Notes under the pieces: generated by a model
Databases searched by the model: none
What the model was told of the DNA's origin: nothing
Seen by the model: the letters and a program-made list of their open reading frames with translations, nothing else
Virus record (IMG/VR): IMGVR_UViG_3300021960_000065
Span: 1 to 64,000 of that record
Length of the DNA: 64,000 bases
Reading direction: 5' to 3' (one strand)
Source: a virus
Translations under genes and position numbers: made by a program
In this document: piece by piece, positions 23,442-63,951 of the stretch
Layout of the letters: each line of letters begins with the position of its first letter
How positions within the stretch are numbered: position 1 is the stretch's first letter

Positions 23442-23452
23442 TTTCAATCACC

Positions 23453-33529: not shown

Positions 33530-34962
33530 GCGTCAGCCCACCCTATTCTCTTTGTCCAAGCCTCGCTGTCAAGAATCACGATGCTGTCTTTATACTCTTT
33601 CGTAGCCTGAACCGCAAGGGCGAGGGCAATAACTGTATCGTCGTGTTTTCCAAGCGACTCCATTTTACCATTCGGCAACATGGTGAACATGGACAATTCG
33701 TTTATCAAAATGTCCATCAATCTTCGTGTAGCCCCATCCTCTTTGTAGGGCAAAATCAAATGCCGTTGTTCAAAGTGCAATTGAAGAGTGTGAATGACCG
33801 CTTCTTTTTTCATACGGCTCATGGTGAATGGTTTGATGGGCAAATCGCTGATTTCTTTCAACACTTGATGAAATGCCTGTGCGAAATTGTTGGTTTCCAA
33901 TTCCACAATGACGGGATTGTAGCGAGTGTTCAATTCTATGATTTTGTCAATTTGGTCGTTGAATGACATTCCTTTTTCACGGTGCATCCAAACCACACGC
34001 TTGTGTCGGTTTTCATCCACCGCAATCACGACCATGCAGGTGTAGTCGGCTGAACGATCAGGGCTGATTGCAGGATCCCAACCAATGTAATAATTCACAT
34101 CCTCTCGGTTGGGGTCGGCATACGGGTCAAATTCAAACGCATATTCCAAGTCCTTACATGGCTCAACCATATCTTCGGGAAATAGACTCGCATCGCTCGC
34201 AATTGGGCGACACAGGTATTCACGGGTAAATGCAATTGAAGTCATTTCGCTTCTTCGCCCTTGTAGTGCCTCAAGACTCCAACGCTCAGGCCACAGCGGT
34301 TCACCCGTCTGCTCACTAATGGCGGGGTATTCACGGACTTGATACCCACTCAAACCCTTCAATTCTTGGTAAAGGTCGGTGTAGGAGAACGGAGTGCCGA
34401 CAATGCACAATTGTGCTGAGTGGTGAAGCACAGGCAACAAAGCGGTGTAAAACCACGAAGCGATGTGTGCTAATTGTGTTGATGCTTCACTTGACAGAAT
34501 ATCGTCAAGCACCACGATGTCAGGGTGCGCGCCACGCACAGCCTTACCGACTGACATAGCCGATATGGATGATTTGTTTGTCATTTTGAATTTCTGTTTC
34601 GCCCATCCTCGTGCGGGTTTCAAGTGCGAAAGCACAGGATTTGACTCAATCAATTCATTCATTTTCCCCATGTGTTCAATTGACTGATGCTGACTGTGTG
34701 AAAAGAATAGCACTTCTGTGCCGGGATTGTAGGCCATTTTCCATAGCAAATAGACTCGGTAAAACACCGATTTGCCGTGATCACGAGAAGCGATTACACA
34801 GGTTTTGTTGTGTTCCTCCGACATGGCAAACCATTCTTCGTGAAAGTCGGCTAATTGATAGCCTTCTTCTTTGCCACAAATGTCCTCAAAAAAGAATTTG
34901 AAATCCCTTCGGCCCATTTCCCAATCCACTTTATTGGCGAGGTCAAGGACACCTGCTGACAC
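33526..34962 (-). CDS. terL: Terminase large subunit
   Basis: The product has 478 residues from a GTG at 34962 with TAGGTGATG in front. Both terminase domains are visible. The ATPase has a Walker A variant S-R-D-H-G-K-S at residues 59-65, Walker B I-V-V-L-D-D at 149-154, and a coupling motif V-G-T-P at 188-191. The RNase H-like nuclease has acidic residues at D296 (Y-I-G-W-D-P-A), E354 (V-I-V-E-L-E-T) and D441/D442 (G-K-H-D-D-T). It cuts concatemeric DNA and pumps it through the portal into the head. The length and motif order are normal for the family. Confidence 0.93.
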   Translation of the reverse strand: MSAGVLDLANKVDWEMGRRDFKFFFEDICGKEEGYQLADFHEEWFAMSEEHNKTCVIASRDHGKSVFYRVYLLWKMAYNPGTEVLFFSHSQHQSIEHMGKMNELIESNPVLSHLKPARGWAKQKFKMTNKSSISAMSVGKAVRGAHPDIVVLDDILSSEASTQLAHIASWFYTALLPVLHHSAQLCIVGTPFSYTDLYQELKGLSGYQVREYPAISEQTGEPLWPERWSLEALQGRRSEMTSIAFTREYLCRPIASDASLFPEDMVEPCKDLEYAFEFDPYADPNREDVNYYIGWDPAISPDRSADYTCMVVIAVDENRHKRVVWMHREKGMSFNDQIDKIIELNTRYNPVIVELETNNFAQAFHQVLKEISDLPIKPFTMSRMKKEAVIHTLQLHFEQRHLILPYKEDGATRRLMDILINELSMFTMLPNGKMESLGKHDDTVIALALAVQATKEYKDSIVILDSEAWTKRIGWADA

Positions 34963-41308: not shown

Positions 41309-42181
41309 TCACCTCCAATGTGGGTGGACTGTGTTGCGTGTTCCGCACTTAGGACAGCGTTTTTGTTCCCACTCTTGAGGGGTTTGAATGTAGCCACAAC
41401 CTCGGCATTGGAGGTCGTTATCAGTCCAACCTTCATCCTCGCCTTCTTCAAGGTCATCCCAAGACTTTTTGTTAATGGTTTTACTACAAAACGGGCAATC
41501 TCCCCTGCCTTCTGTCAATTTGTCATAATCAAGAGGCTCAATTTCAAAGTCACGCTCTTGGTAGGATTCGTCTGTGTTTGGCCCATAGCGATCAAAATCC
41601 GTATAGGTTTCCATCATTACATCGCCAATGTCTTGACCGCAAACGGGACAATCGCCACCCGAAGTGTGCAAATTTTCCATCCCTTCAATGTCCAAGTCTT
41701 TGATGCGTTCCATGTAGCCACATTCACCGCAAGCAAAATTGAGTCGCCCATTTTCTTCTTGCATAATCAAACCTTCTCCACGACACTCAGGGCATTGGTG
41801 CGAGGATATTGCTCTTGGTTCATTCTTGACAATTCCCCAACCCACAACAAACGCCTTTGCCATCCCTTGATGGCTCGCGCAATACTGCCCCTCGCTATCA
41901 ACACGAGCCATGCACATTGAATTAGCACAGGTTGGATAGGTCAAGAAGCGTTTCTTTTCAAAGGATTTCTTCAAATCCTTGTCTTTGTAGCATGGGCATT
42001 TTGGGTCACTCTTTGAGCAATTCATTACGCCTTTTTTCATGCACGCACATGGGCTTGATTTTGTAGCCCCACAACAACATGAATCACGCTTCAACAATTC
42101 CACCTCTTCAATGCAGCACCCTTTGGTGTCAATTTGCCACCTTTGCTCGTTGGCCCTTTTACCCCGCCCATCCGAGCGCAA
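41309..42181 (-). CDS. Multi-zinc-ribbon protein with internal tag motif
   Basis: The frame allows 290 residues from 42181, but the first 25 overlap the upstream gene; GTG at 42103 or TTG at 42094 behind GAGGTGG are likelier starts. The product contains many Cys pairs: a Cys-rich N-terminus (S-C-C-C-G-A-T, C-A-C, C-P-C), then H-Q-C-P-E-C, F-A-C-G-E-C-G, D-C-P-V-C-G, D-C-P-F-C-S, Q-C-R-G-C-G and R-C-P-K-C-G. Between them, A-F-V-V-G-W-G-I-V-K at 110-119 of the long form fits the tag motif. The function is unknown; several zinc ribbons suggest nucleic-acid or protein binding. Confidence 0.55.
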   Translation of the reverse strand: MRSDGRGKRANEQRWQIDTKGCCIEEVELLKRDSCCCGATKSSPCACMKKGVMNCSKSDPKCPCYKDKDLKKSFEKKRFLTYPTCANSMCMARVDSEGQYCASHQGMAKAFVVGWGIVKNEPRAISSHQCPECRGEGLIMQEENGRLNFACGECGYMERIKDLDIEGMENLHTSGGDCPVCGQDIGDVMMETYTDFDRYGPNTDESYQERDFEIEPLDYDKLTEGRGDCPFCSKTINKKSWDDLEEGEDEGWTDNDLQCRGCGYIQTPQEWEQKRCPKCGTRNTVHPHWR

Positions 42182-42699
42182 AACGACTTTCGCCTCTTGG
42201 CTTTCTTTGAACCGGGTTTGAGTGTTGATGGTTTTTCAGTGACGGGGGGTTTGAGGTTTGCACCCTCTTCACGCTTGAATTTTGCACGCCCTTTTGCATT
42301 CAACCCACCTTCACGACTGTGGCGATTTGGGTTGTAGCCATGAAACGGTTTGTCGGACTTTTTGCTCAACAACGCTTTCGCCAATGTGTCACAGGTTTCG
42401 CAATTACACGCTGACTTTTTTGTGTCACTTGGCACACAATTTGGGACTTTTTTGCCCCGCTTGGTTTTCATGCCCACTTGTTCGTAGCCATCCCAACACG
42501 GATCTTCTTTGACAACCCCTCTTGGGCCTGTCCAATATCCACTTGCGATTCTTGCGAATTCGCATTGATTACAATAGCCGGGTATTACCACCTTTCCCCG
42601 ATAGCGAGGCCGTGTAGGATCTATGGGGTTTCCACAATTGTCGCATGGTTCATCCATTTTGACAATTTGCCACACCTTATTGAAAGTGGATGACATCAT
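42091..42699 (-). CDS. Tagged zinc-finger protein with DUF6321-like C-terminus
   Basis: The product has about 202 residues starting at an ATG pair (42699/42696) that overlaps the previous stop. Residues 5-14 (T-F-N-K-V-W-Q-I-V-K) are an N-terminal copy of the tag motif. A zinc ribbon follows (C-D-N-C-G, then Y-C-N-Q-C). The middle has G-Y-E-Q-V-G-M-K-T-K-R-G-K-K-V-P-N-C. The C-terminal basic part, E-G-G-L-N-A-K-G-R-A-K-F and R-R-K-S-F-C-A-R-M-G-G-V-K-G-P, matches what I remember of the DUF6321 family common in marine viruses. A DNA-binding or condensing role is plausible because it is basic. Confidence 0.6.
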   Translation of the reverse strand: MMSSTFNKVWQIVKMDEPCDNCGNPIDPTRPRYRGKVVIPGYCNQCEFARIASGYWTGPRGVVKEDPCWDGYEQVGMKTKRGKKVPNCVPSDTKKSACNCETCDTLAKALLSKKSDKPFHGYNPNRHSREGGLNAKGRAKFKREEGANLKPPVTEKPSTLKPGSKKAKRRKSFCARMGGVKGPTSKGGKLTPKGAALKRWNC

Positions 42700-43118
42700 C
42701 GTTGCCCCCTAAATTTGTTGTAGGTTGCCGCCACTTTCAACGGCAACGAGGAATACCACTTGGCTAATTTTGGCGTAGCCGAATAGGAACGCACCATAGG
42801 CTTGAAGGCTTCATCAATTGCTTTAAGCAATTCATCGGCTTCTTTTCGTGAAACCATCGGCAAAGGTTGTGCTAAATCGCTGAAAGCCATACGAATAACA
42901 ACAATTGCCCCGTATGCTTCCTCCGCATATTTCGTGTGCGTTTCCATCCCAAAAGCATCCAAACCCTTCGCCCACAGTCGCACCGTTTCCTCCAATGCGT
43001 CACAAAGCGTGGAGGTTTGTTCTATGGACAAGATGTTGCTTGGGGTTTCCAAAAGCGACCCATATTCCGTGTTTTTCAACATGAGTGCGGGAATGGTTTG
43101 GTAGTCTTTGTCACTCAT
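42696..43118 (-). CDS. Helical protein, unknown
   Basis: The product has 140 residues from the ATG at 43118 (M-S-D-K-D-Y-Q-T), which overlaps the preceding gene slightly; a further start lies six codons upstream. It is largely helical, with L-C-D-A-L-E-E-T-V-R-L-W-A-K-G and E-A-D-E-L-L-K-A-I-D-E-A-F-K. No family was recognised. It is encoded between the Zn-HTH protein and the DUF6321-like protein, perhaps as part of a packaging or DNA-handling cluster. Confidence 0.5.
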   Translation of the reverse strand: MSDKDYQTIPALMLKNTEYGSLLETPSNILSIEQTSTLCDALEETVRLWAKGLDAFGMETHTKYAEEAYGAIVVIRMAFSDLAQPLPMVSRKEADELLKAIDEAFKPMVRSYSATPKLAKWYSSLPLKVAATYNKFRGQR

Positions 43119-43821
43119 CACCAAGCACCCCCGCATCAGCCAAAGCCTTTCGCATCATTCGCCATTCGTCAGGCGACTTCTCGCTAAAGTGAGCCTGTAT
43201 AACGGTCAGCACATTAACCTGTTGTGAATTTTCAATGTTCTCGGCTGTGCTTAGGTGTTTTGCTAAGTCGCCAAGTGTGTCACGGACTTCACGGTGCAAT
43301 TTCACCGCAGCATCCAATCCTTTGTAGTCAAGCATTCCCGTTTCTTCCCGTTCCGCTTGCATCAAATTGAGGTGATCGTTGAACAACCCATTCAAGCGTT
43401 GAAGGTTGCTATCGGTTTGACGAATGGCATCGGCTACACTCGTGATAGCCGTTGGCAACGCTTCAATTGCCGCCTGTCGCTGAATAACAGGCTGAGTGTG
43501 ATTTTCCATGTGGTGTGATAAAGCACTTGAAGAAACCTCCAAATCCTCAGCCATTTGGTCTATGTCAATCAAACGCTCAAGAATGGCGACTTCAATGTTG
43601 GCTCGCTCAGGGTGTGTGCAAAGCGGGCAATCGCTATTGCTGTTGTTGTGATATTCACCCGAATGTCGCCTCATGTGCCTGTGAGCCGTTCCTTCCGCCC
43701 AATCCTGATTACGATCCATGTCTTGAACATCAATCAGCCCAATGCGGATATTCTGTTCCATCGTGTCACGACTTGGGTGCAAACAGAAGGGGCAATTCCG
43801 CCTTGTCTGCCGACCCACCAT
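43111..43821 (-). CDS. Tandem zinc/HTH protein, small terminase candidate
   Basis: The product has 236 residues from the ATG at 43821. Two related units of about 50 residues stand in tandem: the first begins C-P-F-C-L-H-P-S-R (Cys10, Cys13) and ends H-R-H-M-R-R-H, the second begins C-P-L-C-T-H-P-E-R (Cys65, Cys68) and ends S-H-H-M-E-N-H. Each has the spacing of a zinc-stapled helix-turn-helix. Coiled-coil helices follow (residues 120-200; L-H-R-E-V-R-D-T-L-G-D-L-A-K-H-L). DNA-binding N-terminus plus an oligomerising C-terminus is the plan of small terminase subunits, and no other candidate is near. The gene is 8 kb from the large terminase, so this stays tentative. Confidence 0.5.
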   Translation of the reverse strand: MVGRQTRRNCPFCLHPSRDTMEQNIRIGLIDVQDMDRNQDWAEGTAHRHMRRHSGEYHNNSNSDCPLCTHPERANIEVAILERLIDIDQMAEDLEVSSSALSHHMENHTQPVIQRQAAIEALPTAITSVADAIRQTDSNLQRLNGLFNDHLNLMQAEREETGMLDYKGLDAAVKLHREVRDTLGDLAKHLSTAENIENSQQVNVLTVIQAHFSEKSPDEWRMMRKALADAGVLGDE

Positions 43822-43840: not shown

Positions 43841-44095
43841 TCATTTATTTGGTTGCCGATGATGATAGCAATATCCATTATGGATGGCCTCTTTGCGACA
43901 CGGCTCACCCGCCCTTGTCACACCTTTACAGCGACCACTATCAAGGAATTCCTTTTTGACAACGACCTTTTCTTGTAGTGGTTGGGGTTTTAGAGGCTGT
44001 TCCACTTTTGGAGGTTGCCATTGACTCCTGTTCGCCTCAATACCGAAAGGAAGAATACTGACGCACAGCCACCGTGAAAGTGAATAACATTCCAA
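43841..44095 (-). CDS. Small Cys/His zinc-binding protein (DUF5763-like)
   Basis: The frame allows 84 residues from an ATG at 44095, but the first 19 overlap the preceding membrane-protein gene, so the start is uncertain. The C-terminal 35 residues carry R-C-K-G-V-T-R-A-G-E-P-C followed by N-G-Y-C-Y-H-H-R, a small zinc-binding motif of the C-x-G-x-T-x-x-G-x-x-C type seen in many phage and host proteins. The N-terminal part is Pro/Gln/Lys-rich. The function is unknown. Confidence 0.5.
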   Translation of the reverse strand: MECYSLSRWLCVSILPFGIEANRSQWQPPKVEQPLKPQPLQEKVVVKKEFLDSGRCKGVTRAGEPCRKEAIHNGYCYHHRQPNK

Positions 44096-44285
44096 AGAAA
44101 AAGCCCATGATTTGACTCGTGGACATTTCCGGGCCTTTCCACATCATAATTAAAAATCCCATAAGGATAAATGAAATGATGAAGATCATGGTTGCACTTT
44201 CAACGAGCATTTTTTGCGGGCTTAACAGATTGACACCTGCACTTGCCCAATTGATTTCAGCCTCTTTGTTTCGTTCTTCCGCCAT
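44037..44285 (-). CDS. Small membrane protein with two transmembrane segments
   Basis: The product has 82 residues from the ATG at 44285. Two hydrophobic segments are clear: residues 30-48 (A-T-M-I-F-I-I-S-F-I-L-M-G-F-L-I-M-M) and 60-75 (M-G-F-F-F-G-M-L-F-T-F-T-V-A-V). The N-terminus is charged and probably cytoplasmic. It opens a cluster of membrane-type proteins around the GTPase gene. It could be holin-like or part of a membrane complex; I see no specific signature. Confidence 0.6.
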   Translation of the reverse strand: MAEERNKEAEINWASAGVNLLSPQKMLVESATMIFIISFILMGFLIMMWKGPEMSTSQIMGFFFGMLFTFTVAVRQYSSFRY

Positions 44286-44295: not shown

Positions 44296-44955
44296 TCACA
44301 GAACCGCAGCACCGCCTAATGCAGCACCCGTTTTCATCATATTGCCCATTCCGCCTTGTTGTTGCACTTGATTACCAAGCATACCACCGAGAAGGCTTCC
44401 AAAGAAGCCGGGTTGATTTTGTTGCATCATACCCCCACCTTGCTGATGAGCCATGAGGAACATTTGCATTTGCTGTTGGTTTTGGTTGAGAATTTGTTGT
44501 GCTTGGGATTGAACCCTTTGGAGTGTCAAGGCCAAATTTTCACTTGAAAGGGTCTGCAATTGAGAAGGCATCGTGGCTGTGTCCAATTTGATAGCATCGC
44601 CTTCTTGTTTGAAATTAACACCTGAAAAGAAGTCTTTCATGCACATGAGCATGATTTCACCCATCAATTCCATAATCATCGGCAAATTTTGCGACACAAT
44701 GAACATGGACATTGGGTCATACATTTGAAGCATTTTGGAGGTTGCCACCACAGGGTCGTTTGCCGCCTGTTGCATCATTGGATTTTGGGATTGCATCATC
44801 ATCATAGTTGGATCCATGCCATAGCCACCCATGCCCATGCCCATACCCATGTTGCCCATGCCCATGTTGCCCATGCCCATCATGTTGGGTTGTCCCATTT
44901 GCCCACCACCAAAAGTGGTTGTGCTGTCCGTTTTATTTCCTCCAAACAATCCCAT
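44296..44955 (-). CDS. Met/Gly/Gln-rich repeat protein
   Basis: The product has 219 residues from the ATG at 44955, which follows AGGTGATAAC. Residues 20-50 are repeats of M-G-N-M-G-M-G. The corresponding DNA (about 44818-44890) is made of short tandem units around CCCATG. The centre (residues 75-110) is hydrophobic and helical (M-S-M-F-I-V-S-Q-N-L-P-M-I-M-E-L-M). Gln-rich helices follow, then a Gly/Met-rich end. Composition suggests a membrane-associated or self-assembling protein. It lies in the membrane/GTPase cluster. No family was recognised. Confidence 0.5.
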   Translation of the reverse strand: MGLFGGNKTDSTTTFGGGQMGQPNMMGMGNMGMGNMGMGMGMGGYGMDPTMMMMQSQNPMMQQAANDPVVATSKMLQMYDPMSMFIVSQNLPMIMELMGEIMLMCMKDFFSGVNFKQEGDAIKLDTATMPSQLQTLSSENLALTLQRVQSQAQQILNQNQQQMQMFLMAHQQGGGMMQQNQPGFFGSLLGGMLGNQVQQQGGMGNMMKTGAALGGAAVL

Positions 44956-44963: not shown

Positions 44964-45869
44964 CTATTGCGCGGCCATTTGTTCCTGCATCATCGTGGTA
45001 TTCACTTGTTGTGGTGCGATGCCCACCATTTGCTGTTGTTGAGCCATTTGTTCCATTTGTAAGGCTCGCAAATCAAAAGTCACCGTCACCAAATCCGCTA
45101 CACCTGAAACGGGGTTAGGGTGTTGGGTTAAAGTCACTCCCTTTGAATGCTGTGCGTCCTGTTGAATCATGTTGAAAAATTCAGCGTATTTCAACAACGA
45201 CTCAGGGGTTGAACGGTTTTGTGCCTTAGACGAACCCGAAAAACCCGGCACACGCATGAAGCGTGTTCCCTTTGATACCTTTGAGAATCCTTCTTGTTCA
45301 AGGGTGTGTTCTTCAATCATGCACCGAAGGGTGTGATAAATGTGCAAATGTGCAGGGCAAAGTGTGCTTGACATTTCATCCCCGTGATCGCCATGCGTGC
45401 GTGCGTGAGGCTTTCGTGCCTGTTGAGTTTCCTCATCAAACCAATAAATGTCAGCCAACGATAATCCTGTTCGCTCATCGCTAATGTGGTGATAGGCGTT
45501 ATCGCCCTCAAGGAAACGCCTTACATCCACACCACAACAGGCACACTCGTGTGCTGCATTGTAGCGATACACCTTGAACAAACCCAAATTGTAATTTGGT
45601 GGTCGGAGAGCCTTGCGAAGCATTTTGATGTTTTTCTTTCGTGCCTTTACGGGGTTCTTGGGGTTGGTAATCAATTTGATTTCAACCGTAGGGATGACAA
45701 TTTCTTGATCCATACCTGCGCCCTGTGACCCTGACGAAGCCATTTCAGCCCGTTGCTGTGCCTTGAGGAATTCAAAAGCGATACCCGTTTGGGATGAAAG
45801 GGTTCTCAAATCGGCATCCGATAACCCGTTAAGCGACATTCCGCCACGAGCGAATGGGTTCATACGCAT
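44964..45869 (-). CDS. Cys/His-containing protein next to the GTPase, unknown
   Basis: The product has 301 residues from the ATG at 45869, which sits behind GGAGGGAGT; a GTG at 45926 overlapping the GTPase stop is also possible. Around residues 125-200 it has E-C-A-C-C-G-V-D, N-A-Y-H-H-I-S-D, and C-P-A-H-L-H-I-Y-H, together a plausible metal-binding site of the HNH/treble-clef kind, though the motif is not exact. The C-terminus is Gln/Met-rich, like its neighbour. It may be the partner of the GTPase because the two genes are coupled. Confidence 0.5.
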   Translation of the reverse strand: MRMNPFARGGMSLNGLSDADLRTLSSQTGIAFEFLKAQQRAEMASSGSQGAGMDQEIVIPTVEIKLITNPKNPVKARKKNIKMLRKALRPPNYNLGLFKVYRYNAAHECACCGVDVRRFLEGDNAYHHISDERTGLSLADIYWFDEETQQARKPHARTHGDHGDEMSSTLCPAHLHIYHTLRCMIEEHTLEQEGFSKVSKGTRFMRVPGFSGSSKAQNRSTPESLLKYAEFFNMIQQDAQHSKGVTLTQHPNPVSGVADLVTVTFDLRALQMEQMAQQQQMVGIAPQQVNTTMMQEQMAAQ

Positions 45870-45922
45870 AGACTCCCTCCGAACCATGTGAGTCCTAACA
45901 TATTCAAAATGGTTTCCCCCCC

Positions 45923-46651
45923 TCACAACATTTGAACCGTGTCATAAATGGCACGCTCAACATTCAATCCATATTGGGCTGACATAGCCTCAACATTCGT
46001 GGCAATTCCCGCTTTACGCAAACGCCTCATTTCCTCTTGAAAAGGCAACACCAAAGGGTGTTGTCGCTTCATGCCTTCATCCCACATCCTTTGAGAATCA
46101 ACATCCCACCACAAATCCATTTTGTTCACCAACAAACACACGACCTTTGGTTTGAAAATTTTCGCCTTTTTCTTCAAATAACGATTGAAAGACTTTGGGT
46201 ATTTCGTGTTCGTCATAATGTCCACGAGGTATTTCAATCCTCCAACGGCTTCGCCCAACAGGTATTGGGATTGCAGGATTCGGTGATCAACAACATAGAA
46301 AACAATGCTGATATTTCGCCCAACCATGTCCTCAGCCCACATATTCCAATAACGAGCCTGTCCTCCGAAGTCAGCGGTGGATATGGGGATTTTTTCACCA
46401 TTCCATCGCACCTGTTTCTTTGTTGTGTGAGGCATGGTGAATTGTCCATGCTTCATGGCATGTGTTGTGCGGAGTGCTAACGGTATTGGCTCAATGTCAC
46501 CCGGCACAGTCAGGTATTGGTCTAAGGTTGTTTTACCCGACATAGACGGGCCATAAACACCGAATTTGTGCGGTTTGAGGATTCTGTAAATGTATGACCC
46601 CAATTGTGCTGAACCAAGCAACAAATGCCCAACAAACATCCATGACGACAT
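45923..46651 (-). CDS. Ras/Arf-like small GTPase
   Basis: The product has 242 residues from the ATG at 46651. All main GTPase motifs are visible: G1 G-P-S-M-S-G-K-T at 34-41, a Thr-containing switch I near 62-63, G3 D-F-G-G-Q at 94-98, G4 N-K-M-D at 176-179 and G5 M-S-A-Q at 223-226. Gln98 is where Ras and Arf carry the catalytic Gln. The first 25 residues are hydrophobic (M-F-V-G-H-L-L-L-G-S-A-Q-L-G) and could anchor it to a membrane. GTPases of this class act as switches for complexes or membranes. They are rare in viruses of prokaryotes. Neighbouring genes encode small membrane proteins, which suggests a shared membrane task. Confidence 0.8.
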   Translation of the reverse strand: MSSWMFVGHLLLGSAQLGSYIYRILKPHKFGVYGPSMSGKTTLDQYLTVPGDIEPIPLALRTTHAMKHGQFTMPHTTKKQVRWNGEKIPISTADFGGQARYWNMWAEDMVGRNISIVFYVVDHRILQSQYLLGEAVGGLKYLVDIMTNTKYPKSFNRYLKKKAKIFKPKVVCLLVNKMDLWWDVDSQRMWDEGMKRQHPLVLPFQEEMRRLRKAGIATNVEAMSAQYGLNVERAIYDTVQML

Positions 46652-46656: not shown

Positions 46657-46881
46657 TCACGCACCAAACATCCATTCCCATACGGATGTTGGTGTGATTT
46701 GCCAAAACGCATCAAGTCCGACCATTACAAGAAACGAAAGCGAAGCACCAACCAAGAAGGCGAGAATTGCTTTGATTGTCCAAGTCATGCGCTCAAGCCT
46801 TCGCTCATAGGCGTTTTCAGCGAGAATACTCGCCATCGCTTCCGCCTGTCTTTCTTGTTGTGTGTTGAACGGCCAAGCCAT
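46657..46881 (-). CDS. Small membrane protein with one transmembrane segment
   Basis: The product has 74 residues from the ATG at 46881. The N-terminal 34 residues are charged and helical (Q-E-R-Q-A-E-A-M-A-S-I-L-A-E-N), followed by one hydrophobic segment (residues 36-57, I-K-A-I-L-A-F-L-V-G-A-S-L-S-F-L-V-M). The end is Trp-rich. It is encoded 6 bases before the GTPase gene, so joint expression is likely. The function is unknown. Confidence 0.6.
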   Translation of the reverse strand: MAWPFNTQQERQAEAMASILAENAYERRLERMTWTIKAILAFLVGASLSFLVMVGLDAFWQITPTSVWEWMFGA

Positions 46882-46894: not shown

Positions 46895-47341
46895 TTATTG
46901 CTGTTCAGGTTCTTTTTTGGACTCTTCGGTTTGAACGGGAACGGTAAATGTGGTTGATTGTTGTTGTTGTCCGTAATTGCCGTTGTAAAATTCTTGGTTG
47001 CTTGAATACTTTCGCATTCTTCGTGCTTGAAGGCGAGCCTGTTGCGTTTGCCACTTGTCATAACGGGATTCTTGAGCGAATTCCGCACGCATAGCGAGGC
47101 TATCACGAAGCCCACCCACATGAAACAGCACCATTGACAAACATAGGAAACCGAAAGAAATCAAACCGAATTGAAGGCCCAATTCACCCGCACTCGCATC
47201 AGGCAAATACCACCCCAAGTGTGATACTCCAACAGCAGTGCCGACCAACAATGATTGCCACAGCAACATGGCGATCAAGTTAATGTCAATTCGGTTTTCA
47301 TCCATCGCCCAAGGCGGAACAGGCGGTTTCATTTCTTGCAT
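46895..47341 (-). CDS. Membrane protein with two transmembrane segments
   Basis: The product has 148 residues from the ATG at 47341, which has GGAGGATGAT in front. Two hydrophobic segments are near residues 22-45 (L-I-A-M-L-L-W-Q-S-L-L-V-G-T-A-V-G-V) and 55-78 (F-G-L-I-S-F-G-F-L-C-L-S-M-V-L-F). The C-terminal 70 residues are polar and Gln/Arg-rich, probably cytoplasmic. It belongs to the membrane/GTPase cluster. No known family was recognised. Confidence 0.6.
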   Translation of the reverse strand: MQEMKPPVPPWAMDENRIDINLIAMLLWQSLLVGTAVGVSHLGWYLPDASAGELGLQFGLISFGFLCLSMVLFHVGGLRDSLAMRAEFAQESRYDKWQTQQARLQARRMRKYSSNQEFYNGNYGQQQQSTTFTVPVQTEESKKEPEQQ

Positions 47342-47343: not shown

Positions 47344-47484
47344 TTAATCATCCTCCTTCTTTTGTTTGTTGAAATACTCGCTAATGATGTGATTGATGAA
47401 CGAGGATTTTGACTCACGCCCCCTCGCAGCCTCCATTTTAGCAAATAAATCATCGCTCATCACGACTGACACATGACGGCTCAT
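47344..47484 (-). CDS. Ribbon-helix-helix DNA-binding regulator, 46 residues
   Basis: This short gene runs from an ATG at 47484 to a TAA at 47344-47346. The product has the complete ribbon-helix-helix plan: a strand R-H-V-S-V-V-M-S-D, helix 1 D-L-F-A-K-M-E-A-A-R, a turn G-R-E-S-K-S and helix 2 S-F-I-N-H-I-I-S-E-Y-F. Proteins of this size and type (CopG/Arc class) bind DNA as dimers and often repress their own promoter. It heads the membrane/GTPase cluster. Directly upstream lie three 9-bp direct repeats (47490-47516), a natural candidate for its operator. Confidence 0.8.
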   Translation of the reverse strand: MSRHVSVVMSDDLFAKMEAARGRESKSSFINHIISEYFNKQKKEDD

Positions 47485-47529: not shown

Positions 47530-48603
47530 TCAGCATTTTAGCACAGCCCACCCATGCTCAAAAGGTGTTTCTGTTTCCTGCGATAAAGTGAAGTCAAATA
47601 TGTCCGTTTGTTTTTTGTTGTTAGGCACAAAGCGCGAGTGTCCAAATCGTGATAATGTTTCCAATGGGTCAAAGCCCTCAATGTTGGTGGCAACCATTTC
47701 GGGCATATCACCACGACTTTCAGCCTTTGCGCCCGATTTGTCGGGGCGAATCATTATTTGAGTGTTTAAGCCCAAGTCAGCATATTTTGACGCAGCATCA
47801 GCGGAGTCAAAGGCAACAATTGGCTGACCCTCATTGATGCGTTCATTCAAGGCTGAAAGGTATCGTTGTATATCGTAATTTTCGGAATATGAAGAAGGTT
47901 GATTTTCATAGGGCGGGTCAGAAGCGAGCAAATTGCTTAGGTTAATGTCCCATTCGTTGAGTGCATCCGCAGCATCACCTTGACGCAATTCCACATTTTC
48001 AAAAATAGGTTGATATTCAAGAAAATTGACATCCTCGCCTCTTTTGAAAGGTGTCAAAGTCCCCGAAGGTATGTTGTTGTAGCCCGTTGGCATCCGCACC
48101 ATTCCTTGAAACCCTGTTTTTTTGTTCATGTAATACATTTGAGCCATTTCATATTCTTCTATGGGTGTCAAAGGAATTCCTTGTTTGATTTTATGCAGGT
48201 AATAATTCAAAGAACCCTTTTTGGGCAAATTGCCTTGTTGAATGGCACGCAGGGTTGCACCACGAACATCCTCACGCCATTTGGCAGGTGTCATGTCACT
48301 ATCGTATTGGCTAAAAGGAATTGTCAAACCACCTTCGGTATTTTTCAAATGGCGCAGCATATTGACGAGTCCTGCGTCATATTCGTTCATTCGCACTTGA
48401 CCCGTTGGCATCAAACCCTGAACAAATCCACCGGGGCCACTCGCAGGATCGTCTAACCCTGTTGTTCCTGCCCTTTGTTCAGCCACACGCATGAGAGTGT
48501 TGTAGTGTGGTTGGTTTTTATTGCCGGGATGTTTGATGAATGAGGATATGCCTTTTCCTCGCAACCAATTCGGATCTCTCCGAAATGCGTTGATGTCCAC
48601 CAT
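47530..48603 (-). CDS. D12-class DNA adenine methyltransferase (Dam-like) with C-terminal tag
   Basis: The product has 357 residues from the ATG at 48603. Signs of the D12/Dam family are P-A-S-G-P-G-G-F near residue 53 (cofactor-loop region), N-E-Y-D-A-G-L-V near 73, Y-M-N-K-K-T-G-F-Q-G-M-V-R with N-N-I-P-S-G near 158-181, and the catalytic D-P-P-Y at 229-232. It would transfer a methyl group from S-adenosylmethionine to N6 of adenine in DNA. The last residues, T-P-F-E-H-G-W-A-V-L-K-C, are the tag motif, here at the extreme C-terminus. A packaged methyltransferase could protect incoming DNA, as P1 Dar proteins do, or mark the viral genome. Confidence 0.75.
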   Translation of the reverse strand: MVDINAFRRDPNWLRGKGISSFIKHPGNKNQPHYNTLMRVAEQRAGTTGLDDPASGPGGFVQGLMPTGQVRMNEYDAGLVNMLRHLKNTEGGLTIPFSQYDSDMTPAKWREDVRGATLRAIQQGNLPKKGSLNYYLHKIKQGIPLTPIEEYEMAQMYYMNKKTGFQGMVRMPTGYNNIPSGTLTPFKRGEDVNFLEYQPIFENVELRQGDAADALNEWDINLSNLLASDPPYENQPSSYSENYDIQRYLSALNERINEGQPIVAFDSADAASKYADLGLNTQIMIRPDKSGAKAESRGDMPEMVATNIEGFDPLETLSRFGHSRFVPNNKKQTDIFDFTLSQETETPFEHGWAVLKC

Positions 48604-52284: not shown

Positions 52285-53400
52285 TTATTGCCCCCTATTC
52301 AACAATTGCCAAATGATTTCCATTTCCTCGTTTGATATGCTTGGGTTGTCGTGATCCAAATAGGTGATGTTTGACCCTCGCCTAAAGCAATTGCGACACT
52401 TTAGGCTGTTGGTGAGTGGGTCAATGACCTTATCACATTTGGCGGGGTTGCCGGGCAAAGAAGCAGGGCAAACAGAAGCACCCTCCACCACATTGTCATA
52501 ATTGGTGAAATCAATTGCGGGGTGTTTGCCCAATTCTCTCAAGGGTCGTGACAAATTGTTGAAGTCCGACTTACCGGGTAATGATACCTTGACCGCCAAA
52601 TTTTCAGGGAAGGCATCATCCTCCCAACCCCTCGCATCCAAAAATTGCTGAATAAAGGGTATTTGGCGTGTTGAAAGCCACCCATTGACTGATGGGTTTT
52701 CTTCCATGACATTGGATATGAGAGCCAATTCACCCGCCCCCATTAAGTCGCCCGCTGCCTTGAAACGCACTACGGGTTGGTCTTTTCTTGAACCTCTTTC
52801 AAGCATAGCCGATGGAGTCAAATTGTGAGCAACACCACTTCCAAACGCTTCAGGGTTGTTCAACAATTTGTCCAAATTGTTCCAAATTCGTGCTTGGGGA
52901 CTGTTCAAAGCATATGTTCCTTGGCACGCATAACAATGTCCACAAGCAGTGTTGGGGTCATTGGGTGTTGAATAAACACAGGCTCTTGGCGGAGTGTCAA
53001 AGAATGAAGGGCCGGGCATTTTTCGTGTTTTGCTATACGGGGCGAATTCTCTTGGCTTGAGTCCCGCATCCGCCCCCGTCAAAGAATCCTGCACTTCATC
53101 CCATTCGGGTATTGGGACATTGGCTTCAAGTGGGTAATCCACCACTCTTGGTTGCCCGTTGCTACGCAAATAGGCATCAACGATTTGTGGGTTGTTGATT
53201 ATCCATTCGGTAATGTCCATAGACCTATTCGCTTTTGGGTCAGGCAATTTGCCTCCATAGCGTTTTTCCCACCAAAACATATCGTCGGGATCGCCTAACG
53301 CTTTGATGAGCAGATGGCCCAACGACATGGTTAAGGCATCCGCCATGTGTTTTGCACGCCTCTTCAATTGAAAATCCTTTTTGTTAAGGTTGTCAACCAT
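52285..53400 (-). CDS. GP88-like Cys-rich protein
   Basis: The product has about 371 residues from the ATG at 53400 (M-V-D-N-L-N-K-K); an ATG at 53448 would overlap the divergent chaperonin gene. The layout resembles the phage Gp88 family: T-A-C-G-H-C-Y-A-C-Q-G-T-Y near residue 150, an R-F-K-A-A-G-D-L core near 213 with a following S-T-R-Q-I-P, and a C-terminal set of Cys (S-V-C-P-A-S-L, A-K-C-D-K, K-C-R-N-C). The biochemical role of Gp88 proteins is unknown to me; the Cys pattern suggests metal or cluster binding. The gene stands back to back with the thermosome gene. Confidence 0.6.
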   Translation of the reverse strand: MVDNLNKKDFQLKRRAKHMADALTMSLGHLLIKALGDPDDMFWWEKRYGGKLPDPKANRSMDITEWIINNPQIVDAYLRSNGQPRVVDYPLEANVPIPEWDEVQDSLTGADAGLKPREFAPYSKTRKMPGPSFFDTPPRACVYSTPNDPNTACGHCYACQGTYALNSPQARIWNNLDKLLNNPEAFGSGVAHNLTPSAMLERGSRKDQPVVRFKAAGDLMGAGELALISNVMEENPSVNGWLSTRQIPFIQQFLDARGWEDDAFPENLAVKVSLPGKSDFNNLSRPLRELGKHPAIDFTNYDNVVEGASVCPASLPGNPAKCDKVIDPLTNSLKCRNCFRRGSNITYLDHDNPSISNEEMEIIWQLLNRGQ

Positions 53401-53437
53401 CACAGGGTTAATATGCTTGGTTTGTGTGGCGGTGAAC
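53401..53437 (+). promoter_or_regulatory. Candidate promoter of the thermosome gene
   Basis: The 37-bp gap between the divergent starts holds TTAATATGCTTG at 53408-53419. Its AT-rich core is about 25-30 bases from the ATGs at 53438 and 53441, the usual distance from an archaeal TATA box to the start site, so the message could be leaderless. A near copy, with 11 of 12 bases equal, is in the tandem repeats upstream of the ribbon-helix-helix gene, so control by that regulator is possible. This is inferred from sequence only. Confidence 0.35.
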
Positions 53438-53440
53438 ATG

Positions 53441-55009
53441 ATGCCCAACGGTCAAGCACCCGTATTCATTTTGCGTGAAGGAACAGAAAGAAGTCATGGT
53501 CGTGTAGCCCAATCCAACAATATCGCTGCGGCACGAGCCGTTGCCGATGCTGTGCGTTCAACGCTTGGGCCGAAGGGCATGGACAAAATGCTCGTTGATG
53601 AGGGCGGTGATGTCATCATCACAAACGATGGGGCTACAATCCTTCGTGAAATGGACATTGAACACCCCGCAGCGAAGATGATTATTGAAGTGTCAAAGAC
53701 TCAAGAGCAGGAGTGTTATGACGGCACTACAACGGCAGTTATCCTCTCAGGTGAATTGTTGAAGAAGTCGGAGGAATTGATTTCACAAAACATCCACCCA
53801 ACCACCATTTGCGACACATTCCGTAAAGTCGGAACGGAATTGAATGCGATGATTGACGACTTGGCGTTTGACGGTGATGCTGATGCTCTTTTGAGCGTGG
53901 CTCAAACCTCGCTCACGGGCAAATCCGCAGGTTCAATCAAGGAATTCTTGGGTCGCATTTGCGTTGATGCTGTCGCACGCCTCTCAGCGAGTGGTCGTGT
54001 GGACTTGAATGAAATCATGGTCGTCAAGGCTGTCGGTGGCGAGGCTATTGACAGTCGCTTGGTTTCATCAGTGGTTCTTGACAAAGAACGCTGTCACCCC
54101 AATATGCCCATTTCAGTCACCTCACCGAAGGTTTTGCTTTACAACAATTCCCTGATGGTGCAAACCACTGAAATGGATGCCAACATCCAAATCACCGACC
54201 CCAATCAAATCACCGCATTCCTTGAGCAAGAAGAGGAATTCCTTCGCAACCTCGTTAATGACATTGTGTCAAGCGGTGCAAAGGTGGTCGTTTGCCAAAA
54301 GGAAATTGATGATTTGGCAAAGCATTACCTTGCCAAAGCGGGTGTTCTCGCTGTTGAAAAAGTCCCCAAGTCCGACATTGAGGCTTTGTCACGAACCACA
54401 GGGGCTTCAATCCTGAATAACCTTGAGGATGTGCGGGCAGGAGAGGATGTTTTGGGCGAATGTGGCTTGGTTGAGGAAAAGAAAATCGGTGAATTGCCGA
54501 TGGTTTTCTTTGAAGATCCTGCAAACGCTGTGCCTGTCACTCTCATCCTTCGTGGTGGGACTGTTCCTTTCGTTGAGGAAATTGAGCGTGCCTTTGACGA
54601 TGCCGTTGGTGTCGTGTCCGTTGCTCACGAGGATGGCAAAGTGCTAACGGGTGGCGGGTCTGTTTTCGCTGCGCTTTCGCACAAATTGCACGACTTGGCT
54701 CAAACCCAACATGGTCGTGAGCGTATGGCGACTGAGGCGTTTGCCGAAGCGTTGCTTGTTGTTCCTCGCACGCTCGTGGAGAACGCAGGGCTTGACCCCG
54801 TTGATGAAATGATGACACTACGCACCCACCACGCATCAAACGACAACACCGCATACGGTGTTAATGTCTTTGAGGGTGGTTTGGCGGATATGGCTGAGGC
54901 AGGAGTCTTTGAGCCAAAGCGTGTGGTTGCTCAAGCAATCAAGTCAGCGGTTGAAACCGCTATTATGATTCTCCGCATTGACGATGTGATTTCATCAAAG
55001 AAGGCTTAG
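53441..55009 (+). CDS. Group II chaperonin (thermosome subunit)
   Basis: The product has 522 residues from the ATG at 53441 (the ATG at 53438 adds one; the frame to 53381 has an unlikely leader). It carries the group II signatures: [14 protein letters not shown] near residue 40, [13 protein letters not shown] near 60, D-G-T-T-T-A-V near 92, and T-G-G-G-S-V-F near 383, where hosts usually have G-G-G-A. The end is [10 protein letters not shown], without the Gly/Met tail common in hosts. It should form ATP-driven double rings that fold proteins, perhaps the large virion proteins. It is the only plus-strand gene here, and its end overlaps the opposing gene by 15 bases. Confidence 0.93.
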
Positions 55010-56230
55010 AACATCCTTTGGGTGCATTGGTTCAGGCGAAAAGTGCCGTTGCTCAAGCAATTGCGAAAGGTGTTCACGCGCCATAGGTTTGTCACCAAGC
55101 GTGTAGGTATCAATTGACCCTGTTCTGTGCATAGGATCGTAGCGTTGAGTCCATTCCATCAATTGTGCTTGTTTTTCAGGTGGGACATTCAAATCCCATT
55201 TTTCATAAGCATCCATCATGCCCGGTGTGTTCACGAATTGGTTTGTTTCTTGGACATTCATACCTTGTCGTGTGCTGTCACGATTGACAAACGCCCCAAG
55301 GTTCTCCATCAGTCTTTTGTGTGCTGCATCGGCAGCATCACTCCTTGCGTCTTTCAATGACCCCAAAGTGCCATAATGCTCAATTAGGGCAGGAAGAACC
55401 CGTTCACTATACAGCCCTTGACCTTGATAGCCGTCATCAATGTTCGCATGAACAATCGGAATGGGTTGGTTGGTGTAAGGTTCGGTGAATAGTGAATAGG
55501 CCGTTGTGTGAGGTTCATTTTTTTGATATGGTCTTAACTCCCCATCAGCATCCAATCGTGACTCAATGAATCTGTTAAATTGGGTTGGCAATTGTGGGCG
55601 TGGGAGGTCAATAGCGAAACGCCCCACTTCAAATGGCTTAGGGAGGCTTGTGTCAAACAACGCCCATTGGTCTTTGTTTGGGAGTTTTGCACTCAAAGGA
55701 CTCCCAACGAGCGAATAACCTGACTCATCGTATTTTTCAATGCCGTCATCCTCATCCTGTGATTCCATGTGTTGTTGATTCATTTGTCGTATTTGTTCCA
55801 TCATTTGAGCATAATTCTCGTCAAACATTGGGTTTTCATAAGTCAAAACACCGGGACTACGCTCGTTTTCCACAGCGTCGGGCCAAATGTCCTGTGGCGG
55901 TATGGGTTCGCTTGACACAAATGATGCCTGTTCGCCCACTTGGTTAGGATCGTAGCCTAACATAGCGAGCATCATAGGACTGTGATCAGCACCGGGTGTC
56001 ATTCGTGGGTCGCCCTCATCACGCCAAAACGGAATGACGGACACATGGGGGCTTTGCCTGTTGGTGAATGAAATCCACCTGCGTGCAATTTCAGGGTCAA
56101 GGGAGGCATAAACCTCGCCAAAATTGCTACGAATACCTTCACGCAGGATAGGGTCAAGGTTCTCCGAGGGTGTTGCGTGGTAATACATGGGCATTTTCAC
56201 AATAGCCCAAGCGGAGTCAAATGCACTCAT
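54995..56230 (-). CDS. Tagged ADP-ribosyltransferase-like and acetyltransferase-like fusion
   Basis: The product has 411 residues from the ATG at 56230 after GAGGGATGA. The N-terminal tag is S-A-F-D-S-A-W-A-I-V-K. Next comes an ADP-ribosyltransferase-like region: M-Y-Y-H-A-T-P-S-E-N-L with His18, I-L-R-E-G-I, V-Y-A-S-L-D-P-E-I-A, and S-S-E-P-I-P-P-Q-D-I with Glu108, the order of H-Y-E type enzymes. Residues 250-330 look like a GNAT acetyltransferase, with D-D-G-Y-Q-G-Q-G-L-Y-S-E-R as the cofactor loop. So one protein may carry two modifying activities. The gene ends inside the thermosome gene on the other strand. Confidence 0.65.
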   Translation of the reverse strand: MSAFDSAWAIVKMPMYYHATPSENLDPILREGIRSNFGEVYASLDPEIARRWISFTNRQSPHVSVIPFWRDEGDPRMTPGADHSPMMLAMLGYDPNQVGEQASFVSSEPIPPQDIWPDAVENERSPGVLTYENPMFDENYAQMMEQIRQMNQQHMESQDEDDGIEKYDESGYSLVGSPLSAKLPNKDQWALFDTSLPKPFEVGRFAIDLPRPQLPTQFNRFIESRLDADGELRPYQKNEPHTTAYSLFTEPYTNQPIPIVHANIDDGYQGQGLYSERVLPALIEHYGTLGSLKDARSDAADAAHKRLMENLGAFVNRDSTRQGMNVQETNQFVNTPGMMDAYEKWDLNVPPEKQAQLMEWTQRYDPMHRTGSIDTYTLGDKPMAREHLSQLLEQRHFSPEPMHPKDVLSLL

Positions 56231-56784
56231 GCTTCATCCCTCCACAAATCATCACGAATGGGCCAAGAAGGTTCATCCATCCGATTCCACACCGACTGTG
56301 GATTTTCACCCAATGCGTTAGTCCAAAGCCCCCTTGACGCATCACTTAGTGAATTGGATGGTGTGAGGGGTCGTTTCATGTATTCGTTGAGAATCGCCGC
56401 CGCCATGTCATACATCGCTGTTCCATATCCCCTTCTTCTAACCTGATGTGGGACAAATGAATGATAGGGCCAAAAAGACTGACCTTGTTTTCGTTGTTCA
56501 CCCGTTGTGAAGATTGACATTGGGAGGTCATTGAGTGCCAATCTCCCCAATACATATTCTTCGGGATTAGGGTGATGGATTTCAACAAGCATTCGGGTTG
56601 CATCATCAATCCTATCATCAAAATTTTCACTATTTGGTGTTGCCGTCATTCGGAATGAATCATTCGTTATGGGATCTTCAAAGTCAGCATGAAATTCATC
56701 ACCTTCTCGCCTAAGCGAATTGGGAACAATGGGCATTTTCACGATAGCCCATGCTGAATCAAACGCCTCGCAAAATGTCATCAT
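56227..56784 (-). CDS. Tagged GNAT acetyltransferase-like protein
   Basis: The product has 185 residues from the ATG at 56784, or 56781, behind AAGGAGGTGG. The tag reads E-A-F-D-S-A-W-A-I-V-K-M-P at 6-18. The acetyl-CoA loop is R-R-R-G-Y-G-T-A-M at 116-124, followed by the helix Y-D-M-A-A-A-I-L. The middle is beta-rich. The gene has a clear paralog at 62858-63400: both share K-M-P-I-V-P, E-G-D-E, R-R-R-G-Y-x-T-A, Y-D-M and a final S-W-x-x-R-D-D-L. The substrate is unknown. As a tagged enzyme it may be delivered into the host cell. Confidence 0.65.
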   Translation of the reverse strand: MMTFCEAFDSAWAIVKMPIVPNSLRREGDEFHADFEDPITNDSFRMTATPNSENFDDRIDDATRMLVEIHHPNPEEYVLGRLALNDLPMSIFTTGEQRKQGQSFWPYHSFVPHQVRRRGYGTAMYDMAAAILNEYMKRPLTPSNSLSDASRGLWTNALGENPQSVWNRMDEPSWPIRDDLWRDEA

Positions 56785-57568
56785 ACCACCTCCTTAATTG
56801 AGAAGCCTTTTCACTAAGTCTGTTCGTGTAGGTGAAAACGGCCTGAATTTCTTCTTTGTTCGCATTGTCCCAATCAATGCTATCCTCTAAACGGTCTATT
56901 TCAGCCCGCAATTCGTCTATTTTTCCTAACCTTTCCATTTCGCTTTTGGCATTCATTCTCGCACGATTGCCCATAATTTGTGCTTGTTCGTAGGGGTCTT
57001 TGACTCCTTTAATAGCCGTAGCGATTTCTTTGATTTTTTGCATACGGGGTGTTTGAGGATTTTCCACATACCCTTCTTCATTGACACTTGGGTGACTATA
57101 CAAAGCCCTCAATTTAGCCATGAAATTGGGGTGCTTTGTGTCAGCCTCGTGTTCAGCGGTATATGCGGGGTATTCGTGTCCTTGTGGCTGTTGTCCGTAA
57201 AGACGCTGTAATCGTGGTTCAGCCCAATGCACTGCTTGGTGAGTGGCTTCATGGAGTCCGACAGCACCCGTGTGATACATCAAATCCTTCTCCTGTTCTT
57301 CTGTTAGTGAATCAACACCGTCAGGAAATTGCCTTCCAAAGTGAACAGCAGGGTTTAGCACCGCATAACTTGATGGGCGGTCAAAAGGCGGTGGCCCTCC
57401 AATCGTCGGTTGTCGCAATATAGCACCTCCACTTGCGTTTTGATTGTCCTCATCAAATGTGAAGTCCATTGGGCCAAAACCACCCTCGGCATAAGGAAAA
57501 CCCCTAATGTATTCTGTGTGTGAAATGCTCGCCTTCAACAGCGACCAAACGGTTTCAAACGGGTTCAT
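56759..57568 (-). CDS. Tagged zincin (HExxH) protein
   Basis: The product has 269 residues from the ATG at 57568 after GAGGTGG. The tag is N-P-F-E-T-V-W-S-L-L-K at 2-12. Residues 104-112 read V-G-L-H-E-A-T-H-Q, a zinc-binding HExxH site, and G-H-E-Y-P-A-Y-T-A-E lies 20 residues further, offering a third ligand. The C-terminal 100 residues form a coiled coil (I-D-E-L-R-A-E-I-D-R-L-E-D-S-I). It shares the motif pair with the larger protein at 48603-50768. A protease role fits, but the target is unknown. A structural use of the fold cannot be excluded. Confidence 0.6.
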   Translation of the reverse strand: MNPFETVWSLLKASISHTEYIRGFPYAEGGFGPMDFTFDEDNQNASGGAILRQPTIGGPPPFDRPSSYAVLNPAVHFGRQFPDGVDSLTEEQEKDLMYHTGAVGLHEATHQAVHWAEPRLQRLYGQQPQGHEYPAYTAEHEADTKHPNFMAKLRALYSHPSVNEEGYVENPQTPRMQKIKEIATAIKGVKDPYEQAQIMGNRARMNAKSEMERLGKIDELRAEIDRLEDSIDWDNANKEEIQAVFTYTNRLSEKASQLRRWYDDILRGV

Positions 57569-58328
57569 TTTCTTCCACCTCGTCAGTAGCGTAAGTCGCC
57601 AAGTAATTGGCGCGAAGCCAATTGTTCAATTCTTGAGGCGTGGTTCTCACCTGCCCCATACCGTGTAAAATTTTGTGCTGTCGCAACAATTCCCTTTGTT
57701 GCTCATCGGTCATGGTTTGTAAATGGCCGAAATCCCACATCATCCGATCTATCCAATCGTAGCGTTGCATAGAAGCATCACGCCAATTTTTCAAGCGAGT
57801 AGCCAATTCATTCAATTCTTCCTCCCCCAACCTTCGCATTGTGTGTGGGGGGACATCTCCTTTAGTGCGCCATTGAATCGTGTGTTCGGGATAGGCATAG
57901 TGTGTCAATTCACCTGAGTCGTATTCATCTCGTTGCCATTTGGGTTCTTTAATCCACTCAGGGGCATCGGGATGGTTTTCATCAATTTCAAAAATATCTG
58001 AACCGTAGGCACGAGCCTGATTGAAAGCACCGAGCATTCCCGCAGGTGCTTGAAGGGTTTCTCTCTCGGTTGGCCCTGCGGCGTATTTCCAAGTGTCGCC
58101 CAACATCATCCGTTCCCAATCCTCTTCGCTGTAATCACGCAAAAATCGTTCTTTGATTTGTTCAATGGGCCAATCATAGTCCTCGTTCCTGCGACTGTCA
58201 TAGACATATTCCTGTAAATCCGCCGCTTCATCGCCAACATTCAAGCCCTCACGCTCAACATCGTCACCCCAATAAGTGCCGTGATAAAGGGCTTTCATAA
58301 TAACCCATGCGGAGTCAAAGGCGTTCAT
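57555..58328 (-). CDS. Tagged ADP-ribosyltransferase-like protein
   Basis: The product has 257 residues from the ATG at 58328, chosen because it overlaps the previous stop (TGATG); the longer frame overlaps a real gene. The tag is N-A-F-D-S-A-W-V-I-M-K. It is followed by L-Y-H-G-T-Y-W-G-D-D with the Y-H-G-T of H-Y-E type ADP-ribosyltransferases, then R-A-Y-G-S-D-I-F-E-I-D near residue 115 and a G-D-V-P-P-H-T-M strand near 165, the usual position for the catalytic Glu region, though the Glu itself is not evident. The C-terminus is helical. It may be active or degenerate. Confidence 0.55.
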   Translation of the reverse strand: MNAFDSAWVIMKALYHGTYWGDDVEREGLNVGDEAADLQEYVYDSRRNEDYDWPIEQIKERFLRDYSEEDWERMMLGDTWKYAAGPTERETLQAPAGMLGAFNQARAYGSDIFEIDENHPDAPEWIKEPKWQRDEYDSGELTHYAYPEHTIQWRTKGDVPPHTMRRLGEEELNELATRLKNWRDASMQRYDWIDRMMWDFGHLQTMTDEQQRELLRQHKILHGMGQVRTTPQELNNWLRANYLATYATDEVEENEPV

Positions 58329-59976: not shown

Positions 59977-60082
59977 TTTTCTTTACCCCCGTCACCATGC
60001 ACTTCTTGGTCTTAGCCTCACGCTCATCCAAACGCTTGCTGTGATAGTCAAACCACTCATCAAGCAATTTACAGCGCGTCAT
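59963..60082 (-). CDS. Small charged ORF, 39 residues
   Basis: An ATG at 60082 overlaps the HMG-CoA lyase stop (TGATG) and the frame ends at 59963-59965, inside the start of the next gene. The product (M-T-R-C-K-L-L-D-E-W-F-D-Y-H) is helical and charged, with two Cys (C4 and C28). It fills the space between lyase and the tagged gene, keeping the tight overlap style of the genome, so it is probably translated. It has no tag. Its function is unknown, and it could be a remnant that arrived with the lyase gene. Confidence 0.45.
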   Translation of the reverse strand: MTRCKLLDEWFDYHSKRLDEREAKTKKCMVTGVKKNDPV

Positions 60083-60966: not shown

Positions 60967-61007
60967 GTGCGCTGTGAGGGCGTGACGGCTGAAAAAGTTA
61001 GCGGGGG

Positions 61008-61031
61008 TCAGGCGGTGTCAAAGGCGGTCAA
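61008..61031 (-). pseudogene. Remnant of a cargo-tag start
   Basis: The coding strand reads TTG ACC GCC TTT GAC ACC GCC TGA, i.e. T-A-F-D-T-A then a stop, overlapping the end of the upstream gene. It matches the first codons of the tagged genes (ATGACCGCCTTTGACACCGC) except for ATG to TTG and the lost Trp codon. It looks like the scar of a tagged gene that was replaced here by the lyase gene. The remaining bases up to 60966 hold no gene. Confidence 0.6.
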
Positions 61032-63912: not shown

Positions 63913-63951
63913 GCTGTGCGTCAAGGCACATCATGTCAAAAATGTAGCGGA

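Follow-up and report, generated by a model that had tools for sequence, protein, structure and literature searches.

An Orphan Ras-Superfamily GTPase Encoded with Small Membrane Proteins in Tailed Viruses That Very Probably Infect Poseidoniales

Introduction

Small GTPases serving as membrane switches are regarded as a hallmark of eukaryotes and Asgard archaea. The archaeal small GTPase ArvA (OapA, HVO_3014), encoded in the arvA-arvB-arvC operon, drives vesicle formation in Haloferax volcanii, where its loss strongly lowers and its overexpression raises the vesicle output (PMC10927574). As for viruses of archaea, according to a review of 2015, none of the isolated viruses had an identified holin gene, and virus exit without PVAP was unexplained (PMC4456609). 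In this study, I analyzed a small GTPase gene in a 64,000-nucleotide stretch of viral DNA (hereafter, the window). A preliminary description had seen in this gene a Ras/Arf-like GTPase of a virus of prokaryotes that might control a membrane process such as entry or egress.

Results

The window is part of a 66,564-base IMG/VR record. It encodes, all on the minus strand, an HK97-type major capsid protein (22275–23447; phrog_24667, E = 1e-50), a portal protein (30502–32295; phrog_18178, E = 1e-58), and a terminase large subunit (33526–34962; phrog_38, E = 5e-78), the last of which lies downstream of the GTPase gene at a distance of about 11 kb. The capsid protein is nearest to those of Druskaviridae, with 31–32% identity to HVTV-1/HCTV-1. 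It was found that a 106-kb viral contig of the Poseidoniales single-cell genome AG-422-I20 has a 50%-identical GTPase, a terminase (77%), and, as examined from about 72 kb on, a matching gene order. Based on this single-cell contig, the capsid and terminase genes, and the chaperonin and HMG-CoA-lyase-like genes, which are also reported for the magrovirus family Aoguangviridae (PMC10768690), I take the window to come from a tailed virus that infects Poseidoniales and stands near the magroviruses, without formal assignment. The host of these tailed viruses is very probably Poseidoniales, which are abundant marine archaea. The tail-virus genes, the Druskaviridae-like capsid protein, and the single-cell contig thus agree with the earlier claim of a virus of prokaryotes. 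Magrovirales was defined here as tailed viruses of Poseidoniales with a family B DNA polymerase (PolB) and opposite gene runs. PolB was found on the opposite strand in five near relatives (G003, G007, G009, G017, and G020) and was found neither in seven other relatives (G024 and G029–G034) nor in the window's own record. As PolB was detected in none but the nearest relatives, the replication module may vary. Several of the PolB-negative relatives are 90–108 kb in length and have the GTPase cassette described below.

The GTPase ORF (46651–45923, minus strand) encodes 242 amino acid residues, and the plus-strand reading of 45923–46651 is interrupted by stops. The assignment as a small GTPase is based on its motifs, an AlphaFold2 model, Foldseek, and an alignment. 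After an N-terminal hydrophobic helix (residues 2–24), the motifs follow in the correct order: G1 GVYGPSMSGKTT (residues 34–41), a candidate G2 (R61-T62), G3 DFGGQ (residues 94–98), a basic insert (residues 150–168), G4 NKMD (residues 176–179), and MSAQ with the G5-like motif (residues 224–226). In 129 aligned relatives, G1 (GxxxxGKT), DxxG of G3, NKxD of G4, and R61-T62 are invariant, and so are GKTTLD, D94..G97, W105, D108, D122, R124, and P168. All of the G motifs named in the preliminary description were thus recovered. The catalytic Gln after DxxG is present in the window GTPase and in 84 of the 129 relatives, the others having Glu (27), Asp (13), or His (5). Because of this variability, GTP hydrolysis may be slow or different. 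In the same alignment, the SAQ of G5 is replaced by ATR in a sister clade.

The hydrophobic N-terminal segment, which had also been pointed out, is conserved, although its Kyte–Doolittle hydropathy (about 0.9–1.3) is under the classic transmembrane threshold. The conserved segment of about 20 residues has zero to three charges, forms a helix of low hydrophobic moment, and is followed by a basic stretch of +2/+3. The basic insert, with a median charge of +7 over 19 residues, is placed immediately before the strand leading to NKxD. Searches with the protein query and with the profile gave 14 and 55 GTPase loci, respectively. At least 148 loci belong to the sister clade, and the joint profile count in IMG/VR amounts to 267 relatives, ruling out an accident of a single contig. 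The complete reading frame is retained in relatives as low as about 35–38% identity, and the median dN/dS of 0.056 indicates strong purifying selection. Thus, the conservation of this gene is far beyond chance.

The AlphaFold2 model, made with 41 relatives, has a pLDDT of 82.9 and a pTM of 0.82, with low confidence for the first nine N-terminal residues. The best PDB matches in Foldseek were all members of the Ras superfamily (Rac3, Rab1, Rab6, Rab4, Rab5, and Rap1; E of about 3e-9 to 4e-8), so that the predicted fold is that of the Ras superfamily rather than another P-loop class. In the structure search of BFVD, the named proteins among the best 50 matches were those of eukaryote-infecting giant viruses. 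Single-sequence searches were weak; no Pfam or NCBIfam model scored above its cut-off for the window GTPase, Gtr1_RagA staying slightly below it (E = 2.5e-4; 21 bits vs. a cut-off of 22) and Ras reaching 14.2 vs. 21.6 bits, and a GTP-binding protein structure (8oun) was matched with an E of 0.007. With the family profile, 8oun was matched with an E of 4e-6 in the PDB, in addition to Arl8/Rab33. The Arf profile weakly matched 29 of the 41 members (best E = 2e-4), and the SRPRB profile weakly matched 11 of them (best E = 0.01). An identity as SRP receptor beta was rejected, since the profile matches were only weak.

When 390 Thermoplasmatota genomes were searched with the viral profile, weak matches to a cellular GTPase were obtained (best E = 3e-6). 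The nine best matches examined are of the ArvA type in arvA-arvB-arvC operons, with the OapB/ArvB gene directly downstream at nine of nine loci and the OapC/ArvC gene at seven of nine. The genome scans thus suggested membership in ArvA, which was rejected because the signal is only N-terminal: the likeness is limited to about 53 N-terminal columns and is gone once the P-loop is removed. The remainder of the viral GTPase after the P-loop aligns with Ras/Rab-like and Arf-like proteins. The tree, which has long branches, prefers joining the viral family with ArvA (SH-aLRT 95) but does not reject placements with Rab or Arf (AU p of about 0.10). From the N-terminal-only ArvA signal, the Ras/Rab/Arf-like remainder, and this tree, I conclude that the viral GTPase is an orphan family of Ras-superfamily grade, for which membership in Ras, Arf, and ArvA is each unproven. 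The term "Ras/Arf-like" is therefore right at the superfamily level, as indicated by the Foldseek matches to Rac/Rab/Ras/Rap (E = 3e-9), but unproven at the family level, as no Pfam gathering score of Ras or Arf was reached.

Is this gene common among the relatives of the virus? The GTPase gene was found in 18 of the 28 records that contain the terminase. The GTPase site is about 11 kb upstream of the terminase gene, and the other ten records stop 0.1–7.8 kb upstream of it. Because the gene is present in all of the 18 records that are long enough, it is regarded as a core gene. Outside this group, no homologue was found among the sequenced phages of INPHARED, and no match was found in PHROGs. 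Together with the best 50 BFVD matches, which are essentially of giant viruses, these results support the claimed rarity of such GTPases in prokaryotic viruses. The magrovirus literature that was searched has no mention of a GTPase.

The GTPase gene is located in a conserved cassette in which the order is a 148-residue protein with two transmembrane (TM) helices, a 74-residue protein with one TM helix, the GTPase, a Zn-binding candidate of about 301 residues, a 219-residue protein, an 82-residue protein with two TM helices, and a 236-residue helix-turn-helix (HTH)-like protein. These neighbors are constant; within the window's clade, each was found at 47–50 of 50 loci, and in the sister clade all except the 74-residue protein were recognized at 76–82 of 82. 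The 74-residue protein (46657–46881, minus strand) is encoded directly upstream of the GTPase and has a helical N-terminus. It was found in 48 of 50 relatives, with one predicted TM helix in 49/49, and is recognizable by sequence in 5 of 82 sister-clade loci. In the sister-clade loci inspected, its place is occupied by a short ORF that contains a hydrophobic stretch. The 148-residue membrane protein (46895–47341, minus strand; 47/50 relatives and 76/82 sister-clade loci) has a polar C-terminal tail after two TM helices, which were predicted in 47/47 members of the window's clade, and one or two TM helices in the sister clade. Directly upstream of the cassette, a 46-residue ORF (47344–47484, minus strand) resembles ribbon-helix-helix regulators (SDDLFAKMEAARGRESKSSFINHIISEYF) and has no Pfam match.

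Downstream of the GTPase gene lies the ORF of the Zn-binding candidate (44964–45926, minus strand), whose likely start at 45869, preceded by GGAGGG, gives a product of about 301 residues. It is present in 50/50 and 82/82 loci and is the most conserved cassette protein, with a median identity of 67% within the window's clade. The invariant residues C109, G113, C171, H174, H176, and H179 suggest that it probably binds Zn. A Foldseek search with its model gave no match at E ≤ 0.001. In the sister clade, an AbrB-like protein of 59–66 residues is encoded between the GTPase gene and that of the Zn protein (at about 10713–10913 in L138, and in L134 and L184), and it is missing at this junction in the window's clade. 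The next ORFs encode a Gly/Met/Gln-rich protein of 219 residues with a conserved helical core (44296–44955, minus strand; 50/50 and 82/82 loci) and the 82-residue membrane protein (44037–44285, minus strand; 48/50 and 82/82 loci), which has two TM helices in 49/49 members of the window's clade and 79/82 of the sister clade. The 236-residue protein (43111–43821, minus strand; 50/50 and 82/82 loci) has CxxC pairs and weak HTH matches, and it may be a small-terminase-like protein or a regulator. With hhalign, no cassette family matched ArvB (DUF2073) or ArvC (DUF2072 Zn ribbon). In the related tailed halovirus HCTV-1, neither a GTPase nor the cassette is annotated upstream of terL.

On the host side, Arf-family proteins above the cut-off were found in 0 of 97 Poseidoniales genomes, compared with 66 of 293 genomes in the phylum at large. 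ArvA was found in none of 60 Poseidoniales genomes and ArvB in none of 11 (positive controls, 7/7). Apart from the viral contig itself, 146 Poseidoniales genomes gave no cellular counterpart of the viral GTPase, and recent acquisition from the host was rejected on this ground. Based on these four absences from the samples, the virus seems to bring along a class of switch that its hosts lack, leaving aside incomplete genomes and distant GTPases of other families. ArvA and ArvB are apparently missing from the sampled Poseidoniales, yet they are present in other Thermoplasmatota.

Another feature of the window is a short N-terminal tag, F(D/E)xAWx(I/L/V)(I/L/V)K (consensus MTAFDxAWxxVKM), which occurs in the first 60 residues of at least 12 otherwise different ORFs (shuffling expects 0.055). 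The tagged ORFs are located at 54995–63924 on the minus strand and also at 42091–42699, and related virus genomes carry the tag, too. The tag resembles the virion-targeting or protease-cleaved leader known from the T4 internal proteins and is possibly a leader of such a kind, marking packaged and injected proteins. A C-terminal copy is present in the ORF at 47530–48603. Four tagged proteins (61028–61633, 62858–63400, 58328–59260, and 56759–57568, minus strand) have hints of enzymatic domains. Profile matches below the curated cut-offs in the tagged set are PARP-like (E = 0.0075) and GNAT-like (E = 0.0012), and ParB-like (GEGNHR) and metalloprotease-like (HEATH) motifs were seen by eye and are unmatched in profiles. 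An untagged HMGL-like lyase (60079–60966, minus strand; E = 1e-20) is encoded between tagged genes, and a full-length archaeal-type chaperonin (53381–55009; Cpn60_TCP1, E = 8e-163) is encoded on the plus strand, opposite to the surrounding genes.

Discussion

The membrane-type N-terminus and basic faces of the GTPase, its small membrane partners, the Zn-binding neighbor, and the late-gene position point to a membrane-bound late switch. I tentatively propose that this core late gene encodes a membrane-associated viral GTP switch which, together with the membrane cassette, may well reshape the host membrane at a late stage of infection. In this model, the hydrophobic helix at the N-terminus and the basic surfaces would hold the GTPase at the cytoplasmic face of the host membrane, where it would switch the small membrane proteins, presumably transcribed together with it, in a GTP-dependent way; the Zn-binding neighbor could be its partner or regulator. 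Egress would be the likeliest step at which the membrane is remodeled. Beyond a GTPase in a membrane cassette, each step of the model is inferred: that the genes are transcribed together, that the protein binds the membrane and hydrolyzes GTP, that it interacts with its neighbors and deforms the membrane, and that egress is the step served. The working would be ArvA-like without the GTPase being a demonstrated ArvA. Given the adjoining small membrane proteins, the membrane process imagined in the preliminary description is plausible. Against this model, the N-terminal helix would make a poor transmembrane segment, the likeness to ArvA is N-terminal only, no cassette gene resembles ArvB or ArvC, and the G3 Gln varies. 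A location close to the packaging genes would suit assembly or entry as well.

It is unlikely, though conceivable, that the virion carries the GTPase and its membrane partners for use at entry, when they would be inserted in the host membrane and control genome delivery. The gene belongs to the virion-morphogenesis run, shortly before the terminase, portal, and capsid genes in the order of transcription, and the Gly/Met/Gln-rich neighbor looks structural; however, the GTPase does not have the N-terminal tag common to the likely packaged proteins. The lack of an annotated cassette in HCTV-1 also speaks against entry, an absence that applies equally to the other readings. The tight linkage to the terminase and the HTH protein, and a basic insert that could bind DNA, would rather suit a cytoplasmic assembly factor, powered by GTP, that chaperones or regulates the building of capsids or the packaging of DNA; the membrane genes would then be adjacent for some other reason. 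This reading seems less probable than entry, as two to three membrane proteins always co-occur with the GTPase and the N-terminal hydrophobic helix is kept across the relatives.

Since the closest viral structural matches are the small GTPases of giant viruses, and since a membrane cassette is present, the GTPase could also be targeted at the host, where, like a giant-virus Rab, it would alter membrane signaling or polarity or keep out other viruses. The sampled Poseidoniales have no Arf-family GTPases, ArvA, or ArvB, so there would be little known machinery of the same class to hijack, and accessory genes for host takeover are not usually so strictly conserved as a core part of the late genes. 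I consider host control more doubtful again than an assembly factor. Lastly, AAA and RecA profiles weakly match the P-loop alone, as a kinase or ATPase mimicking a GTPase might, but such an identity is very improbable in view of the invariant NKxD and DxxG, the Ras-type topology, and the Foldseek matches over the full length.

If the late membrane switch is the right reading, the GTPase and its own small membrane proteins could further constitute the exit apparatus of Poseidoniales tailed viruses, unlike holin-endolysin systems or PVAP pyramids. This extension is rather unlikely as it stands; if true, it would mean GTP-driven release from hosts whose sampled genomes showed no GTPase system of this kind. 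The cassette is a good candidate for the means by which these viruses deal with the host membrane, and it is a concrete candidate for the way in which archaeal tailed viruses without PVAP cross the membrane. Here, a viral GTPase is tied to a conserved membrane cassette in viruses whose hosts are those in which the class was not found.

How does the viral GTPase compare with known systems? Like the Ras/Rab proteins of giant viruses, which are the closest viral folds among the best 50 BFVD matches, it is a virus-encoded small GTPase. However, those viruses have eukaryotic hosts and the identity is about 10–19%, and the two groups probably have separate origins. With the Rab/Ras-like proteins of archaea (Thermoplasmatota) and eukaryotic Ras/Rab, it shares a full-length alignment with the same order of DxxGQ, NKxD, and SA..G.NV, but the structural matches have about 13–20% identity, the viral protein has an N-terminal helix, a long switch region, and the basic insert, and it falls beneath every Pfam cut-off. 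The N-terminal membrane helix followed by a GTPase domain and DxGGQ recall the Arf family and SRP receptor beta, although a myristoylation site is lacking (residue 2 is Ser or Ala in the window's clade). ArvA differs in having DTPG at G3, where the viral family has DxGGQ or DxAGQ (or E/D/H in place of Q), and lacks a counterpart of the basic insert before G4; there is no similarity after the P-loop, and the viral neighbors are unrelated to ArvB and ArvC. On the other hand, both are archaeal small GTPases of about 220–240 residues with an N-terminal helix before the G domain, a YGPxxxGKTTL P-loop, IPxExR before switch I, and a gene linked to that of a Zn protein. ArvA showed that a small GTPase makes vesicles in Euryarchaeota, and in the present case one belongs to the core genes of viruses of abundant marine archaea.
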